64,000 bases of DNA from contig JAFRBB010000056.1 in assembly GCA_017405085.1 (NCBI GenBank), positions 1-64,000 of the forward strand. Direction: 5' to 3'. This document shows positions 1-8,673 of the stretch, piece after piece (within the stretch, counting starts at the first letter, position 1; each line of letters opens with the position of its first letter). The position numbers and the translations under genes are program-made. The notes under the pieces are model-generated. The model was not told where the DNA came from. It was given only the letters and a program-made list of their open reading frames with translations, and ran no database searches. The stretch comes from Eubacteriaceae bacterium (GTDB lineage Bacteria > Bacillota > Clostridia > Eubacteriales > Eubacteriaceae).

Positions 1-355
1 GATAAAGTTTTATGGCTTTCGTCATCAGCGAAATATTTGCATCCAATAGTGCTTTCCTTCAGCCTCGCTGATCCATAATCCCAAAATATCTTTTTTGCCC
101 TCGAGATCATATCCCAATATCACATAAACCGCGCAGTTTTTCGTTTCCATCTCTTTGCGAATAGTAACATACAGGCAGTCCATAAACAGAAATGTATAAA
201 ACTTTTTTAGGGGCCGGTTCTGCCACTCTTCAACTTTATCAAGAACTTTGTCTGTGATGTCCGAATTAGCCTCATGAGAGATTTCAAATCCGTAGATTCT
301 GCAGCCGGATTTCTTTTAATCTTTTTTTACGAGATGCCATGATTATTGTACTCAT
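1..355 (-). pseudogene. IS256/mutator-type transposase remnant
   Basis: Read on the minus strand, about 28-320 encodes the central block of an IS256-family transposase: a YGFEISHEANSDIT segment, then EEWQNRPL, FMDCLYV, AVYVILGYDLEGKKDILG and LWISEAEGKHYW. These match the family region around the second catalytic aspartate. A possible start codon at 355 gives a short basic peptide that hits a stop and must shift frame near 300 to reach the conserved block. A second frame change near 30 separates the YW block from ADDESHKTL. The N-terminal third is absent and the window edge removes the rest. The gene is therefore inactive. No terminal inverted repeat could be located. Confidence 0.8.
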
Positions 356-766: not shown

Positions 767-1723
767 TCATTCGACGGTCACCACAATTTTACCGTCGGCG
801 CCGCCTTTGTCTTGCGTTAAACAGGCTTCTTTTATCTGATCAAACGTAAACACCGCGCCAATTTTCGGAACTAAATGATGAATATCCATAAATCGGAAAA
901 TGTCATCAAAGATTGCTTGTGTCGGACTGTTTGAAAAATACCCTGTCAGATAAACACCGTTGGGAATATCTTTGATCGGGTCAAAATCCCGCAATGCTTC
1001 AATACCGCCCAAAATGCCTGTCTGGCAGACAATACCGCCTTCGTCAACAGCGGAAAGGGAATCTTTCAAAACAGCTGGTCCGACCAAATCAAGGACTTTG
1101 GTTACGCCGTTTAATTCTCCAGCCAGCTTTCCGCCATCCAATCGTTTTTCCACCGAATCATCAAGCAAAGACAATTTGCTTTCTCGGTGCGTTGTCGCGA
1201 TGACGCGGCATCCAAGGGCATTCGCAATCTGCATAGCGGCATACCCCAAGGCGCAGGTCGCTCCCCGGACAAGCAGGGTATCATCCACTTCAATTTTAAG
1301 ACAGTCAAAAAGGGATCCCCACGCGGTTAAATAGGTTTCGGGTACCGCGGCGAATGCCGCCCATGACAAAGATGTATCGACATGAAAAACATGATGCGCG
1401 GGAAGCAGCGCGTACTCGGCATAGCTGCCATTAAAGCTTCTTCCCATTCCGCCCATCACAGCGCAAACTTTTTCTCCGACAGTAAAGTCCGTATCCGAAG
1501 CGTCCGCGATTTCACCGACACATTCTATTCCGGGTACCACAGGATGCCTGATATAACGATTGTTGATCTCAGAAAGCCGTAGAATTTTTTCCGAATGATT
1601 CAAACCGAATGCTTTCACCTTAACCAATACCCACCCCGGTTTAACGGCAGGCACGGGAATCGCCGTCAGCTTAACGGACTGTGCCGGCGTGACGCGATCA
1701 ATCAAAACCGCTTTCATTTTCAT
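767..1723 (-). CDS. MDR (alcohol dehydrogenase/quinone oxidoreductase) family protein
   Basis: A 318-residue medium-chain dehydrogenase/reductase. The N-terminal GroES-like half carries the VKAFGLNHSE and VPGIECVGEI motifs. The C-terminal half is a Rossmann domain with an RGATCALGYAAMQIA nucleotide-binding turn. The catalytic and structural zinc cysteines of true alcohol dehydrogenases are missing, which points to a zinc-independent, probably NADPH-dependent, quinone-oxidoreductase-like reductase. The ATG at 1723 overlaps the radical SAM stop as TGATG and is preceded by GGAGG, so the two genes are translationally coupled. That coupling suggests work on the same substrate, possibly RiPP tailoring, but this is inference. 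The true substrate is unknown. Confidence 0.85.
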   Translation of the reverse strand: MKMKAVLIDRVTPAQSVKLTAIPVPAVKPGWVLVKVKAFGLNHSEKILRLSEINNRYIRHPVVPGIECVGEIADASDTDFTVGEKVCAVMGGMGRSFNGSYAEYALLPAHHVFHVDTSLSWAAFAAVPETYLTAWGSLFDCLKIEVDDTLLVRGATCALGYAAMQIANALGCRVIATTHRESKLSLLDDSVEKRLDGGKLAGELNGVTKVLDLVGPAVLKDSLSAVDEGGIVCQTGILGGIEALRDFDPIKDIPNGVYLTGYFSNSPTQAIFDDIFRFMDIHHLVPKIGAVFTFDQIKEACLTQDKGGADGKIVVTVE

Positions 1724-2775
1724 CAATCATCCTCCACTATTTTCCAGCATTGCGGATCAGCGTCATAAAAATCACCGCGCGCGCCGCTGGCAACCGCCGG
1801 GCATCCCCTGCACCAGGCTTTTAACTCACATTTGGCACATTTTTGAAACCGATCAAAATGACGATAATTGTCCATTTGCGACACCCAAACATCAGCCATT
1901 CTGTCAGAATAAACACTGCCTACCCGACTGTTCTGCACGCGTCGGCACGCGTAAATATCTCCGTTGGGCAGTATCGTCAAATGACTGTCGCCGCAATGAC
2001 AACCGCCGTAAATGACATCCGGCCTCGCTTGCTCGGGAATGGAAAAGGCGCCTGTTTCATAATCATAGAGAGTCCAGAGATGATCCTTTTTGTTAAAATA
2101 TGTCTGACAACCGGCTTTCTCATATGCCTTAAATTTGGCATCGCAAACAGAAAGCAAATCGCGATAAGCTTCGGGCGTCATATAATTCGCATTCGATGGA
2201 TCAGCCTTTTCCTCACTGGTCGGACAATAACGTGAAAAAGCGTATACATTGACATCCGCCTGAGCGACAGCGTCAATAATCCCCGGTATTTCTTTAATAT
2301 TCACACCGGAAACCGTGGTCATAATGACCGAACGGATACCGGCATTGTTGATCATGTCGATTTTTTGCAAGGTTTCCCGAAAAGAACCCGGCTTTCGAAA
2401 CCAATCATGCGTTTTTTCCAAGCCGTCAATTGACATTTGATATTTTTGACAGCCTCGCTCCTTTAACGCGGCGCACACTTCCGGTGTCAAATGAAAGGGA
2501 TTTCCCATGATGGTAAAAGGAATACTTTTCTGATTGAATAAATCCAATAGACGCCAGAAATCCGGATGAAGAATCGGATCGCCTCCCGTCAAATAGATGT
2601 AAGGCCTTCTGCCATAAATATGGCAAAAATCCTCAATCTGCGCAAGCGTCACCATCATGTCTTCCCAAGACATTGAATCGATAGCATGCTGTCCTTCGGA
2701 AAAAATATAACAATGCTTGCATCGTTGATCACAAGCATCGGTGATGTGCCATTGAAATGCGAAAAATGGTTTCAT
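1723..2775 (-). CDS. Radical SAM/SPASM peptide maturase
   Basis: A 350-residue radical SAM enzyme. The Cx3Cx2C cluster motif is C15, C19, C22 (CDQRCKHCY), followed by the TGGDP motif at 63-67. The C-terminal SPASM domain has cysteines at about 259, 261, 277, 313, 316, 322, 325 and 343, enough for two auxiliary Fe-S clusters. Such enzymes typically install thioether or C-C crosslinks in ribosomal peptides. The only candidate substrate nearby is the Cys-x3-Asp repeat peptide encoded 670 bases upstream on the same strand. The ACGX-repeat pairing of radical SAM/SPASM enzymes and repeat peptides is recalled as a curated type; membership here is inferred from context. The ATG at 2775 has an upstream AGAGGAA. 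Confidence 0.9.
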   Translation of the reverse strand: MKPFFAFQWHITDACDQRCKHCYIFSEGQHAIDSMSWEDMMVTLAQIEDFCHIYGRRPYIYLTGGDPILHPDFWRLLDLFNQKSIPFTIMGNPFHLTPEVCAALKERGCQKYQMSIDGLEKTHDWFRKPGSFRETLQKIDMINNAGIRSVIMTTVSGVNIKEIPGIIDAVAQADVNVYAFSRYCPTSEEKADPSNANYMTPEAYRDLLSVCDAKFKAYEKAGCQTYFNKKDHLWTLYDYETGAFSIPEQARPDVIYGGCHCGDSHLTILPNGDIYACRRVQNSRVGSVYSDRMADVWVSQMDNYRHFDRFQKCAKCELKAWCRGCPAVASGARGDFYDADPQCWKIVEDD

Positions 2776-2794
2776 ATCTAAAAAGTTCCTCTGA

Positions 2795-3430
2795 TTTTGT
2801 TAAGTGAGCGTCCAAATTTTATATTTGGCACACGCGAACTTACCCCGCGAAGCGGGTGGATAAGTGAGCGTCCAAGTGAATGATGAATGATGATTTGTCT
2901 CTCGCAGATAAAAGATTTAAACGATATGATTAATCAGCGCAATCCGCGAGAAAAATAGACCCTCGTAGGCGGCCCCAAAAAGGCTTCTTGTCCCTTTGGG
3001 AAAAGAAGCTGGCCGGCTTTAGCCGGAGTTAAGTGACGATCCAAGAACACAAGTGAAACGCAGTGTGATTGGAGCATCGGAACTTATCCCTAGCGAAGCG
3101 GAGTGTGATGATAAGGGACGCCGCAAGGCGCATACCCCCCAAAGATGGACATAAAAATCCAAACAGAAATCCGAATTTTTCGGATTTCAACCTGAATTAT
3201 TCATTATTACTTATTCATTATTCATTATTCATTTCCGCGAAGCGGGTGGATAAGTGTTACCGAAAAAATAGGACGGCATCGACAAAACGATAACCGTCCG
3301 GAATTCATAATAAGTGAGCGTCCAAATTTTATATTTGGCACACGCGAACTTATCGAGCGAAGCGGGTGGATAAGTGAGCGTCTGAATTTTTAATCAGCAG
3401 ACGCGAACTTATCAAATGAAATGGATAGAT
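2795..3430. repeat. Mosaic of palindromic intergenic repeats
   Basis: The gap between maturase and precursor genes is built from repeats. TAAGTGAGCGTCCAAAT followed by ATTTGGCACACGCGAACTTA occurs near 2801-2850 and 3311-3355, forming long imperfect hairpins. A derivative with other inner bases follows at 3371-3412. GCGAAGCGGGTGGATAAGTG occurs three times. An AAGTGACGATCCAAGAAC block at 3030-3120 recurs near 13070-13140. An AAATCCGA/TCGGATTT hairpin with an ATTCATTATTCATT tail lies at 3167-3235. No gene is supported inside. The repeats may separate or stabilise transcripts of the flanking genes. Confidence 0.75.
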
Positions 3431-3441
3431 GAGAAATAATT

Positions 3442-3648
3442 TTATTGATCTCCCGCTCCGCAAGCTGAGTTCGCGTCGGAAGCGCCGCAAGCGGCTAACG
3501 CGTCAGAAGCACCGCAAGCTGAGGAACCTGCTTTCAGACCGTCACCGGCACCGCAAGCTGAAAAAGCATCTCCCGCTCCGCAAGCGGTTCCGGTAATCGT
3601 CAAACTCGTATTCTCGGTTTGCCATCCAATGAATTGTGATAATGCCAT
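3442..3648 (-). CDS. Cys-x3-Asp repeat RiPP precursor peptide (ranthipeptide-like)
   Basis: A 68-residue peptide. Residues 1-21 form a leader-like stretch (MALSQFIGWQTENTS...). Residues 22-68 hold five repeats of ACGAGD or ACGASD, with cysteines at 23, 32, 45, 54 and 63, each followed by Asp four residues later (27, 36, 49, 58, 67). Linkers are rich in Ala, Ser and Gly. Cx3D is the crosslink motif described for freyrasin-type ranthipeptides, in which a radical SAM enzyme joins Cys sulfur to the Asp side chain. The start at 3648 is preferred over an upstream ATG because AAAGGAG lies 10 bases before it. Crosslink type and activity are not proven by sequence. Confidence 0.85.
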   Translation of the reverse strand: MALSQFIGWQTENTSLTITGTACGAGDAFSACGAGDGLKAGSSACGASDALAACGASDANSACGAGDQ

Positions 3649-3798: not shown

Positions 3799-4746
3799 AT
3801 GAACATTCATCAATTAGAATGCTTTGTCAGCCTCGCTTCAACCCTTAATTTTGCCAAGACAGCCGAACAACTCGGATTAACACAACCGGCGGTATCCAAA
3901 CAAATCAGAGCGATGGAAACAGAACTTGACGCATCTCTTTTCGAACGGTCAACCCGTTCCGTTTCTCTAACACCCATAGGCCGTCGTTTTCTTTCCGAAG
4001 CGAACGACATGCTCCAAATCTTTTATCGCGCGAAACAGTGGATCGGATCATATGACCAAGCGGAAAAAAACGTCATTCGCATTGGGTATTCCGACCCGCA
4101 TGCCATTCAGTTCATCAGCCATGCGCTCAAACGCACGCGCGCATCGTTTTCGGAAAATATCACACCTCAACTCGTCCTCGATCAAACCGATGCCAATCTC
4201 GGGCGTCTTCAAAAAGATCAAATAGACTTTGTGATTGGTATGCGAGATGCTAAATTTGACGACCATACGATTACCTTTACCAAAATCAATGAAAACAGGT
4301 TTAAATTTATCATTTCAAAAGAACACCCGTTCACTGAGAAAATTATAAAAAAAGCGTTATCTGAAAATAGTAATACTGACAACAGAAATTTCGAGGATGA
4401 AGAACATATTATTCATACGCAATCATTTCAACACATTCGGCAAATTCTGGCAATACCGCCTTATTTATTAAAGCATTTTTTCTCCAGAGGACATTACCTT
4501 CTTCCGGTTAATGACAATCTGGACAATATCATTTGCGCGAATGTCAATGAAGCTTACGGGATGGTGCTTGCGTGTCTGGGCTATGCTTTGGTTCCGGAAT
4601 ATCTCATTATCGATCATCCGGACATTCTATTTTTTGATTGGGCGGAATCACCCCAAGCCGATTTTGGTATTTATCATAAAAAAATCAGCAACAAGCATTC
4701 CGCATTTTCACATTTTCTAAAAAATGTAAGATACACACCAATCTGA
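3799..4746 (+). CDS. LysR-family transcriptional regulator
   Basis: A 315-residue regulator. The N-terminal winged helix-turn-helix (residues 1-60; NIHQLECFVSLASTLNFAKT, then LGLTQPAVSKQIRAME) is typical of the family, followed by an effector-binding region of about 200 residues. GGAGAAAAACATG provides the ribosome-binding site. The gene is divergent from the RiPP precursor with a 150-base shared region containing a dyad, so the simplest reading is that it controls the RiPP genes and perhaps itself. The effector is unknown. The C-terminal domain is less conserved than the DNA-binding part by eye. Confidence 0.93.
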   Translation: MNIHQLECFVSLASTLNFAKTAEQLGLTQPAVSKQIRAMETELDASLFERSTRSVSLTPIGRRFLSEANDMLQIFYRAKQWIGSYDQAEKNVIRIGYSDPHAIQFISHALKRTRASFSENITPQLVLDQTDANLGRLQKDQIDFVIGMRDAKFDDHTITFTKINENRFKFIISKEHPFTEKIIKKALSENSNTDNRNFEDEEHIIHTQSFQHIRQILAIPPYLLKHFFSRGHYLLPVNDNLDNIICANVNEAYGMVLACLGYALVPEYLIIDHPDILFFDWAESPQADFGIYHKKISNKHSAFSHFLKNVRYTPI

Positions 4747-4829: not shown

Positions 4830-5198
4830 TTATTTATTTTTATAATCCCGATACCCTTGCGGTCTTTTTCCGGAAGCGATTTGTTTATCCGTACTAACTG
4901 TCTCAGCGTTGTCAATCAGCTCATCATAAACGATCTTTTCCATCGCGGGATAAACCGAAGCGCTCTCATAACCGGTCAACGTTCCCTCAATTTGTTCTGT
5001 TGCCGCTTCAGCAGCCGCGATCGCTGTTTTGACGGCTGAGACGGGGCCTTCGATTTTTACCACAATGCGGCCAAGCGTTCCGGAGTATTCGTACCCAATC
5101 AACTTAACATTCGCCGCTTTTAACATGGTGTCCGCCGCTTCCAATGCCGACGACATCCCAATCGCCTCAATCACGCCGACGCAGTATCGATTAGACAT
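4830..5198 (-). CDS. Bacterial microcompartment (BMC-domain) shell protein
   Basis: A 122-residue protein. Residues 1-85 form a single BMC domain (VGVIEAIGMSSALEAADTML, then VKLIGYEYSGTLGRIVVKIEGPVSAV), as in hexameric shell proteins of the PduA/EutM type. A C-terminal tail of about 35 residues is charged and may recruit cargo or partners. GGAGGAG precedes the ATG. The gene overlaps the end of the araC gene by 28 bases and is the last gene of the operon. No second shell protein, BMC-P pentamer or typical cargo enzyme lies in the window, so this is a satellite shell gene or a minimal locus. Confidence 0.9.
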   Translation of the reverse strand: MSNRYCVGVIEAIGMSSALEAADTMLKAANVKLIGYEYSGTLGRIVVKIEGPVSAVKTAIAAAEAATEQIEGTLTGYESASVYPAMEKIVYDELIDNAETVSTDKQIASGKRPQGYRDYKNK

Positions 5199-7457: not shown

Positions 7458-8393
7458 TTAAAAATTGTCAAAAAAACCGATTTGCCGATTGATCCAGGAC
7501 ACCTGTTTGACGTCATGCACCCATTCATCTTCCCCCAATTGACCGATCAGTAATGGTGAACGCGGATCATGCCGCTTCATATTTTCCAATACAGCATGTC
7601 GGTCGACGTTGGCGTAACAATATCGACAAAAATGCTCGCAACTGTTATAAGCGCCGATATCACAAGACAAATAACAGCTGCAACCCTCGCGACTGGGCTT
7701 TAGCTTCGGAGCCTTCAGACGCTGTCCGATGGCTCTTTCATAATCCGAAATGGTCATGCATCCCGAGGCGTCCGCGCCGTAAGGCGCGAGGATATCCCCT
7801 TCCCCGCAGGTTTTGACGCGCATGCCATACTCAGACGCTATGGCAATCAACTGTCTGCCCAAACGGATCTTCACATTTTCCGGAACCGCTTTAGCCTCCG
7901 GAAAATATCGCCTAACCTTTGGATAAAGGTCGATAAAACTGATCACAACGGTATCTGTCGCGTTTTCTAAAAGCGATGCCATTTTTCGAAACGCTTTGAG
8001 ATGATACTCCTCGGTATATCGCTGTGTGAGGAAAATGGGATCATAACGCCAAATCACCGCTTTTTGACCTAACATTTGAGACAACAGCCGAAAGGATTCA
8101 ATGACTTTCCCGACTTCGGGAACGTTTGGTTCAATATCGCGTCCATATGGCGTCATCGTCACGGACCACACTTGTCCAAAGCCGTCAAGCAAATCCATAT
8201 ATGGCATCATGCTTTCCGGGTTTTTCGTACAAAAACCAATGACATCCACAACATTGGGATCCAAAAGATAACGGCTGACCTGTCCGGCGTTAAATGGATT
8301 ACGCACGCAAACAGTCCCCTCTTTTAACCGTGTCGCAAACCACTTGGCGTAAAACGCGGGAATATCTGTCCGCTGTCCCGTATTGATAATCAT
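7458..8393 (-). CDS. DUF1848 family protein
   Basis: A 311-residue protein of the DUF1848 family. It starts with MIINTGQRTDIPAFYA and ends with a cysteine-rich module (GCSCYLSCDIGAY, then EHFCRYCYAN), where CxxCYAN recalls spore-photoproduct-lyase-like or radical SAM-type Fe-S sites. Family function is not established. The start at 8393 is preferred to the upstream ATG because GGGAG lies about 8 bases ahead. The gene stands alone, between the kinase operon and a 280-base gap. Confidence 0.88.
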   Translation of the reverse strand: MIINTGQRTDIPAFYAKWFATRLKEGTVCVRNPFNAGQVSRYLLDPNVVDVIGFCTKNPESMMPYMDLLDGFGQVWSVTMTPYGRDIEPNVPEVGKVIESFRLLSQMLGQKAVIWRYDPIFLTQRYTEEYHLKAFRKMASLLENATDTVVISFIDLYPKVRRYFPEAKAVPENVKIRLGRQLIAIASEYGMRVKTCGEGDILAPYGADASGCMTISDYERAIGQRLKAPKLKPSREGCSCYLSCDIGAYNSCEHFCRYCYANVDRHAVLENMKRHDPRSPLLIGQLGEDEWVHDVKQVSWINRQIGFFDNF

Positions 8394-8673
8394 CTTTAAC
8401 TCCCGCCTTTCCGACATTCCGCAAAACGACCTGCCCCGAGACCAACAAAACAGAAATCACCTGGGGTCCGAAAAACCTTTCGGTTTCTGTGTCCAATCAG
8501 ACACGATCGACAAATATGACCAACGCGTTTATCAACACATTGGCCATACAGTTTGTCTCTCAAATCGTTATGATTGATCAATGATTGGACAAATTCTCAT
8601 TCTAAAAATATAAAACAATCAATAGATAGATGCATTAAAGACATTTTCTTGCGGCAATCATCAAGGGAGAGTT
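8394..8673. other. Intergenic region, nothing supported
   Basis: Between the DUF1848 and rnhA genes. Overlapping short frames on the minus strand contain a CRSC peptide but have no ribosome-binding site or recognisable domain. No promoter or hairpin stands out. Confidence 0.4.

Follow-up and report, generated by a model that had tools for sequence, protein, structure and literature searches.

What does an MDR-superfamily reductase contribute when its gene overlaps that of a radical SAM maturase? The question arises from the first few kilobases of the 64,000-nucleotide stretch of Eubacteriaceae DNA analysed here (the window), where the minus strand encodes, in this order, a repeat-containing precursor peptide (3442-3648; 68 aa from its ATG), a radical SAM/SPASM maturase (1723-2775; 350 aa) and an MDR-superfamily, NADPH-type reductase (767-1723; 318 aa). 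A divergent LysR-type regulator gene occupies the opposite side on the plus strand (3799-4746), where most other loci have an HxlR regulator. Base 1 of the window is also base 1 of its contig, C34, so that the window cannot reveal genes once located 3′ of the MDR gene; between that gene and the contig end lies a remnant of a Mutator-family transposase (25-183, minus strand; PF00872, 42 bits). Elsewhere in the window, a single gene for a BMC-domain shell protein (4830-5198, minus strand) adjoins an AraC-type regulator gene.

The maturase is AcgM, the radical SAM/SPASM enzyme of the ACGX system, as judged by its score of 562.1 bits with the NCBIfam model TIGR04340 (cut-off 400). The earlier note had filed it among the ranthipeptide enzymes, an assignment that we dropped because the PapB ranthipeptide model NF047865 gives 64.8 bits, far below its cut-off of 340; the second-best curated model, that of the thio(seleno)oxazole maturase SbtM, reaches 169 bits, far under its own cut-off. 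The neighboring peptide, which would comprise 83 aa if started at an upstream TTG (3693), contains five cysteines, each opening a Cys-Gly-Ala-(Gly/Ser)-Asp unit; despite these five ACG repeats and its position by AcgM, it scores 24.5 bits with the precursor model TIGR04341, just below the cut-off of 28. All five cysteines conform to the repeated Cys-x3-Asp/Glu pattern of PapA-type peptides and, given that this spacing matches PapA as portrayed in the available text of PMC9413430, a Cys-x3-Asp thioether crosslink in the ACGX peptide is plausible. Among the peptides found at 96 of the 100 loci that we surveyed, Asp or Glu stands at i+4 for 360 of the 633 scored cysteines; 251 have Cys at i+4, and 241 of the latter have Asp or Glu at i+8 (96 peptides). 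The peptide and maturase genes of the window are separated by 666 nt (2776-3441), compared with a median of about 102 nt across 96 loci, and this gap contains direct repeats, 47-72 nt long (2801-2872, 3311-3382 and 3387-3433). One candidate family member, L101/L130, was rejected: it scores 308 bits, below the AcgM cut-off, and no ACGX peptide was found beside it. This AcgM-related radical SAM/SPASM gene (L130, G240:C66) adjoins genes that, by eye, are AgrB- and AgrC-like.

The reductase gene begins where the maturase gene ends. As the earlier note had observed, the maturase stop and the MDR start overlap by one base in the sequence TGATG (TGA at 1725-1723, ATG at 1723-1721), and a GGAGG (1735-1731) lies within the maturase gene, seven bases 5′ of the MDR ATG, so that the whole junction falls within 1721-1735; on the minus strand it reads GTGGAGGATGATTGATGAAAATGAAAGC. 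The ATG at 1723 is a putative MDR start, a TTG at 1726 and a second ATG at 1717 also being possible, and the alignment of several MDR homologs begins at the position of this second ATG. When start positions were picked by a script favoring Shine-Dalgarno matches, the reductase start overlapped the maturase stop, or fell within 30 nt of it, in 21 of 23 scored MDR loci (12 overlapping) and 51 of 57 scored loci with a nitroreductase in place of the MDR (29 overlapping). Thus, the geometry of the junction is a family trait rather than a product of chance, and it can fairly be inferred from this geometry that the maturase and the MDR are translationally coupled and made together.

The survey sample of 100 loci was gathered in three sets (6 + 80 + 14), and leans toward the kin of the window maturase because 80 of the 100 were found by similarity to it; exclusion of L101 (below the cut-off) and L082 (lacking sequence beyond the maturase) left 98 assessable loci. 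In 96 of these, a reductase is encoded downstream of AcgM, mostly by the next gene, which marks the MDR as a partner dedicated to the maturase and agrees with the link between the two enzymes drawn in the earlier note. The identity of the reductase varies: 29 loci have only an MDR, 62 only a nitroreductase, five have both and two (L016 and L094) have neither while keeping the peptide and AcgM, for an MDR-family total of 34 (L009 and L031, labeled 'none' and 'short' by the script, were counted as MDR loci by hand). After de-duplication at 97% maturase identity, the corresponding numbers among 88 loci are 23, 60, 3 and 2, and the mutual exclusion of the two families is strong (Fisher 8e-16, with descent ignored). 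Moreover, for the four of the five 'both' loci that were compared (L070 was left out), the nitroreductases are less than 30% identical to the slot nitroreductases or yield no match, whereas identity among 47 slot nitroreductases is about 35% or higher; since the 'both'-locus enzymes compared belong to another subfamily, none of the 98 loci was shown, within the scope of this comparison, to combine an MDR with a slot-type nitroreductase. As to whether maturase homologs keep the MDR neighbor, a check that the earlier note had suggested, 34 of 98 do and 64 do not. That note had taken frequent absence of the MDR, together with relatives in other contexts, as grounds for abandoning the partnership; both are observed, literally speaking, but the absence amounts to replacement rather than irrelevance because 62 of the 64 loci lacking the MDR carry a nitroreductase. 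The notion that a missing MDR marks an unimportant one was dropped, the nitroreductase occupying the slot instead.

Several comparisons bear on how this exchange came about. On the maturase tree, a quick tree with many open forks, the MDR label switches about 12 times, and L032 and L041, whose maturases group together at 97% identity, have different reductases. An independent-pairs test on well-supported branches points toward replacement in 3.1 of 4 pairs on average, although four pairs cannot reach 0.05. MDR and maturase distances are correlated (r 0.81, 0 of 1000 permutations, n 28), a result that shared descent alone would also give. The MDR tree, from which four MDR fragments (L026, L032, L069 and L076) were left out, joins two long branches (L006 and L106), which makes the placement of an MDR from a genome lacking AcgM (see below) uncertain. 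Five further loci from the phylum, which partly repeat the main set, have a nitroreductase in four cases and an MDR in one; loci from whole genomes likewise overlap with the main set, the L137 and L079 MDRs being identical. The choice of reductase is not linked to the peptide, given that a single precursor motif is common to MDR and nitroreductase loci.

The window MDR itself consists of the ADH_N and ADH_zinc_N domains, with N42-H43-S44-E45 and I66 at positions where zinc MDRs carry their Cys and His ligands. Its AlphaFold model (mean pLDDT 89) fits zeta-crystallin-type quinone oxidoreductases, with 7vem, 1yb5 and 4dup as the best structures. The earlier description of the enzyme as zinc-independent is consistent with both the residues and this predicted fold. 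The relationship is distant: the fold and the zinc-free site are those of zeta-crystallin/PIG3-type enzymes, whereas sequence identity is only about 19-26%, the PIG3 model TIGR02824 gives 140 bits against a cut-off of 296.8, and no curated NCBIfam model reached its cut-off with this protein.

Only a few close relatives of the MDR lie outside ACGX loci. In overlapping genome samples, each searched with a limited number of scored candidates per genome, strong matches to the MDR profile occur in 4 of 391 class genomes (E limit 1e-60), 2 of 299 phylum genomes (1e-80) and 5 of 101 relatives (1e-60), that is, in eight distinct genomes, five of which (G000, G016, G057, G167 and G653) have the MDR beside AcgM and three of which do not. 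The near-complete genome G186 encodes a 55%-identical MDR and contains neither AcgM nor the zinc macrodomain discussed below; this ACGX-type MDR (L106, G186:C3) adjoins a ferredoxin-nitroreductase with two 4Fe-4S motifs. Weaker MDR relatives in G011 and G021 have other surroundings. A search of 72,556 plasmid records gave its best match on a plasmid of the archaeon Methanosphaera (present in two versions), in which an HxlR-like regulator, an ACGX peptide and a split AcgM are followed directly by the MDR, in the same order as in the window, with a flavin/ferredoxin protein adjoining. In this locus (L144, Methanosphaera sp. ISO3-F5), AcgM consists of two ORFs and the peptide has CGTE/CGSE rather than CGxxD units. 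There are seven other plasmid matches; the three annotated ones examined sit in unrelated contexts, with MDR relatives at 40-43%, and a fourth record carries no annotation.

Contextual information from gene neighborhoods defines a usual module that consists of a redox-type regulator, the ACGX peptide, AcgM, an MDR or nitroreductase, a flavin/ferredoxin fusion, a zinc macrodomain and a SirTM sirtuin. A regulator is encoded nearby in 77 of the 82 loci with enough upstream sequence (HxlR 67, LysR 7, Rrf2 4); one HxlR representative matches RrpB best and one Rrf2 representative HypR, both redox regulators, with scores below the respective cut-offs. According to the accessible part of the literature, quinones and oxidants are sensed by HxlR/DUF24- and Rrf2-type regulators, and in Bacillus and Staphylococcus the DUF24/HxlR group has quinone- and nitroreductases under its control (PMC6798810). 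Among the 54 loci with at least 4 kb downstream, a PNPOx/ferredoxin fusion is present in 38, a zinc macrodomain in 31 and a sirtuin in 33. The sirtuin was identified as SirTM from one representative (L045), which is closer to SpySirTM than to deacylase sirtuins (240 bits with 5a3a versus 22.7 bits with the canonical 1ma3), and the macrodomain likewise from one (L044; NF003163, 350.8 bits, cut-off 272; closest structures 8rsi and 5kiv), both identities being carried to other loci by similarity. The zinc macrodomain is found in all 15 class genomes with an AcgM over the cut-off compared to 56 of 376 others (Fisher 2e-12, with descent ignored), and in 12 of the 15 it lies within a few kilobases of AcgM. 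Linkage to SirTM and the macrodomain is weaker for MDR loci (5 of 17) than for nitroreductase loci (26 of 37). The genome of the window has two SirTM/zinc-macrodomain operons elsewhere, away from the ACGX genes (L127 and L128, contigs C6 and C17), both led by an Rrf2 gene and one carrying the PNPOx/ferredoxin fusion. A DUF1848 gene (PF08902) is located in the window (7458-8417, minus strand); because this family also appears downstream of AcgM in 5 of the 100 loci (L012, L062, L080, L097 and L102) and in a Roseburia plasmid ACGX operon, it may sometimes belong to the module.

At the level of sequence, our interpretation is supported by the geometry of the coupled genes, by a reductase that is present almost without exception, by the exchange of two such enzymes and by the redox-type company of the operon. 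That the MDR is a partner of the ACGX module appears highly probable. The complete picture, that of a dedicated, NADPH-dependent reductase of the ACGX operon, coupled to AcgM and exchangeable with an unrelated enzyme of the nitroreductase family, we consider about equally open to being right or wrong. The MDR and nitroreductase families share NAD(P)H-driven two-electron reduction of electrophiles. Given this shared chemistry, the quinone- and oxidant-sensing regulators, and the ties of SirTM/macrodomain operons to oxidative stress and oxidoreductases that are reported in the available sections of PMC4518038 and PMC11490716, we favor, with belief and doubt in balance, a role for the MDR as an NADPH-dependent redox-stress effector of an ACGX stress operon. 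In this scheme, the operon would respond to oxidative or electrophile stress, AcgM would introduce crosslinks into an intracellular peptide at its Cys-x3-Asp repeats, and either reductase would use NAD(P)H as a hydride donor for an electrophile within the system, most likely a small molecule of the quinone or enone type or the adduct that such a molecule forms on the ACGX peptide. Against this stand the LysR rather than HxlR regulator of the window, the weaker SirTM/macrodomain linkage of MDR loci, the two loci that have no reductase (L016 and L094), and G186.

The main competitor, to which we assign perhaps a chance in four, is the second modification step that the earlier note had envisaged, in which the MDR or nitroreductase would reduce an unsaturated or oxidized residue made by AcgM in the ACGX peptide. 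Such a role would fit a reductase that is almost always present and whose gene is coupled to that of the maturase, and an oxidized ring product is conceivable because AcgM's second-best model is the SbtM maturase (169 bits). Precedent exists in lanthipeptides, where the unrelated reductases LanJA, LanJB and LanJC fill one accessory role in RiPP operons by acting on dehydroamino acids, although LanJA is described, in the text available, as zinc-dependent and the window MDR has no such ligands (PMC11519912). A PapB-type Cys-x3-Asp thioether corresponds, according to the portion of PMC9413430 at hand, to a loss of 2 Da and offers no double bond to reduce. L016 and L094 retain the peptide and AcgM with no reductase, and the redox-type surroundings need no such step and suggest redox stress. 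We know of no source of dehydro residues in the ACGX system, unlike in the lanthipeptide LanJ case.

A bolder and rather doubtful reading casts the entire operon as a redox-signaling module, in which the crosslinked Cys/Asp peptide would replace lipoyl-GcvH-L as a redox carrier, SirTM would ADP-ribosylate the peptide Asp (or AcgM), the zinc macrodomain would remove this modification, and the MDR or nitroreductase would act on the peptide as an NAD(P)H oxidoreductase. The extended SirTM operons of S. aureus and S. pyogenes similarly combine SirTM, a zinc macrodomain and oxidoreductases in a redox-linked setting, as outlined in the accessible parts of PMC4518038 and PMC11490716, whereas the ACGX operons have the peptide and AcgM instead of lipoyl-GcvH-L and its ligase, and no GcvH-L carrier was found. 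Specifically, searches of five genomes for GcvH (PF01597) returned nothing convincing: three had no match, and the weak matches in the other two (22.2 and 21.3 bits against a cut-off of 22.2) were not near the macrodomain.

A role for the reductase, together with the flavin/ferredoxin fusion, in supplying electrons to the iron-sulfur clusters of AcgM is quite unlikely. PapB can be activated by FMN plus NADPH (PMC10470005, in the text available), and the two 4Fe-4S motifs of the PNPOx protein would suit such a route, but the MDR, which shares the slot with the nitroreductase, has no one-electron cofactor, that is, neither a flavin nor a metal centre to split a hydride, and NADPH alone, as a hydride donor, cannot do so according to the same partial source. 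Least likely of all is a general detoxifying reductase caught in the operon by chance: MDRs are common, with 40-43% relatives in unrelated plasmid contexts and weaker ones in G011 and G021, but the slot reductase is kept in 96 of 98 loci, the MDR adjoins AcgM in loci spread over a phylum as well as in an archaeon, and it does so in five of the eight genomes with a strong match in the three surveys.

The redox-effector interpretation, which we retain as the preferred one, builds on known components. The genes of the window correspond to the NCBIfam ACGX system (AcgM TIGR04340, AcgA TIGR04341), with the maturase over its cut-off and the ACGX peptide adjacent, and have the same layout as the annotated acgA/acgM of the Roseburia plasmid; these models name the peptide and maturase only and apparently cover neither the reductase slot nor the link to SirTM and the macrodomain. 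The PapA/PapB (freyrasin) ranthipeptide system is similar in its radical SAM/SPASM enzyme and repeated Cys-x3-Asp peptide, so far as the excerpted PMC9413430 describes it, and differs in that the window maturase falls far short of the PapB model and the ACGX crosslink is putative. The open-access literature that we searched yielded no paper on the ACGX names or on a radical SAM enzyme combined with a macrodomain, nitroreductase or SirTM, although such papers may exist elsewhere. Thus, the component families are known, whereas the reductase swap and the make-up of the operon appear undescribed in that literature.

These findings equip the ACGX system with a testable set of partner genes, and the repeated swapping of two unrelated reductases beside one maturase narrows the range of roles that the reductase could have. 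Furthermore, targets of SirTM/zinc-macrodomain pairs beyond GcvH-L are stated to be unknown in the available part of PMC11490716; the ACGX operons set a specific, small, Cys- and Asp-rich candidate target beside such pairs, in genomes that, in all five searched, seemingly lack GcvH.
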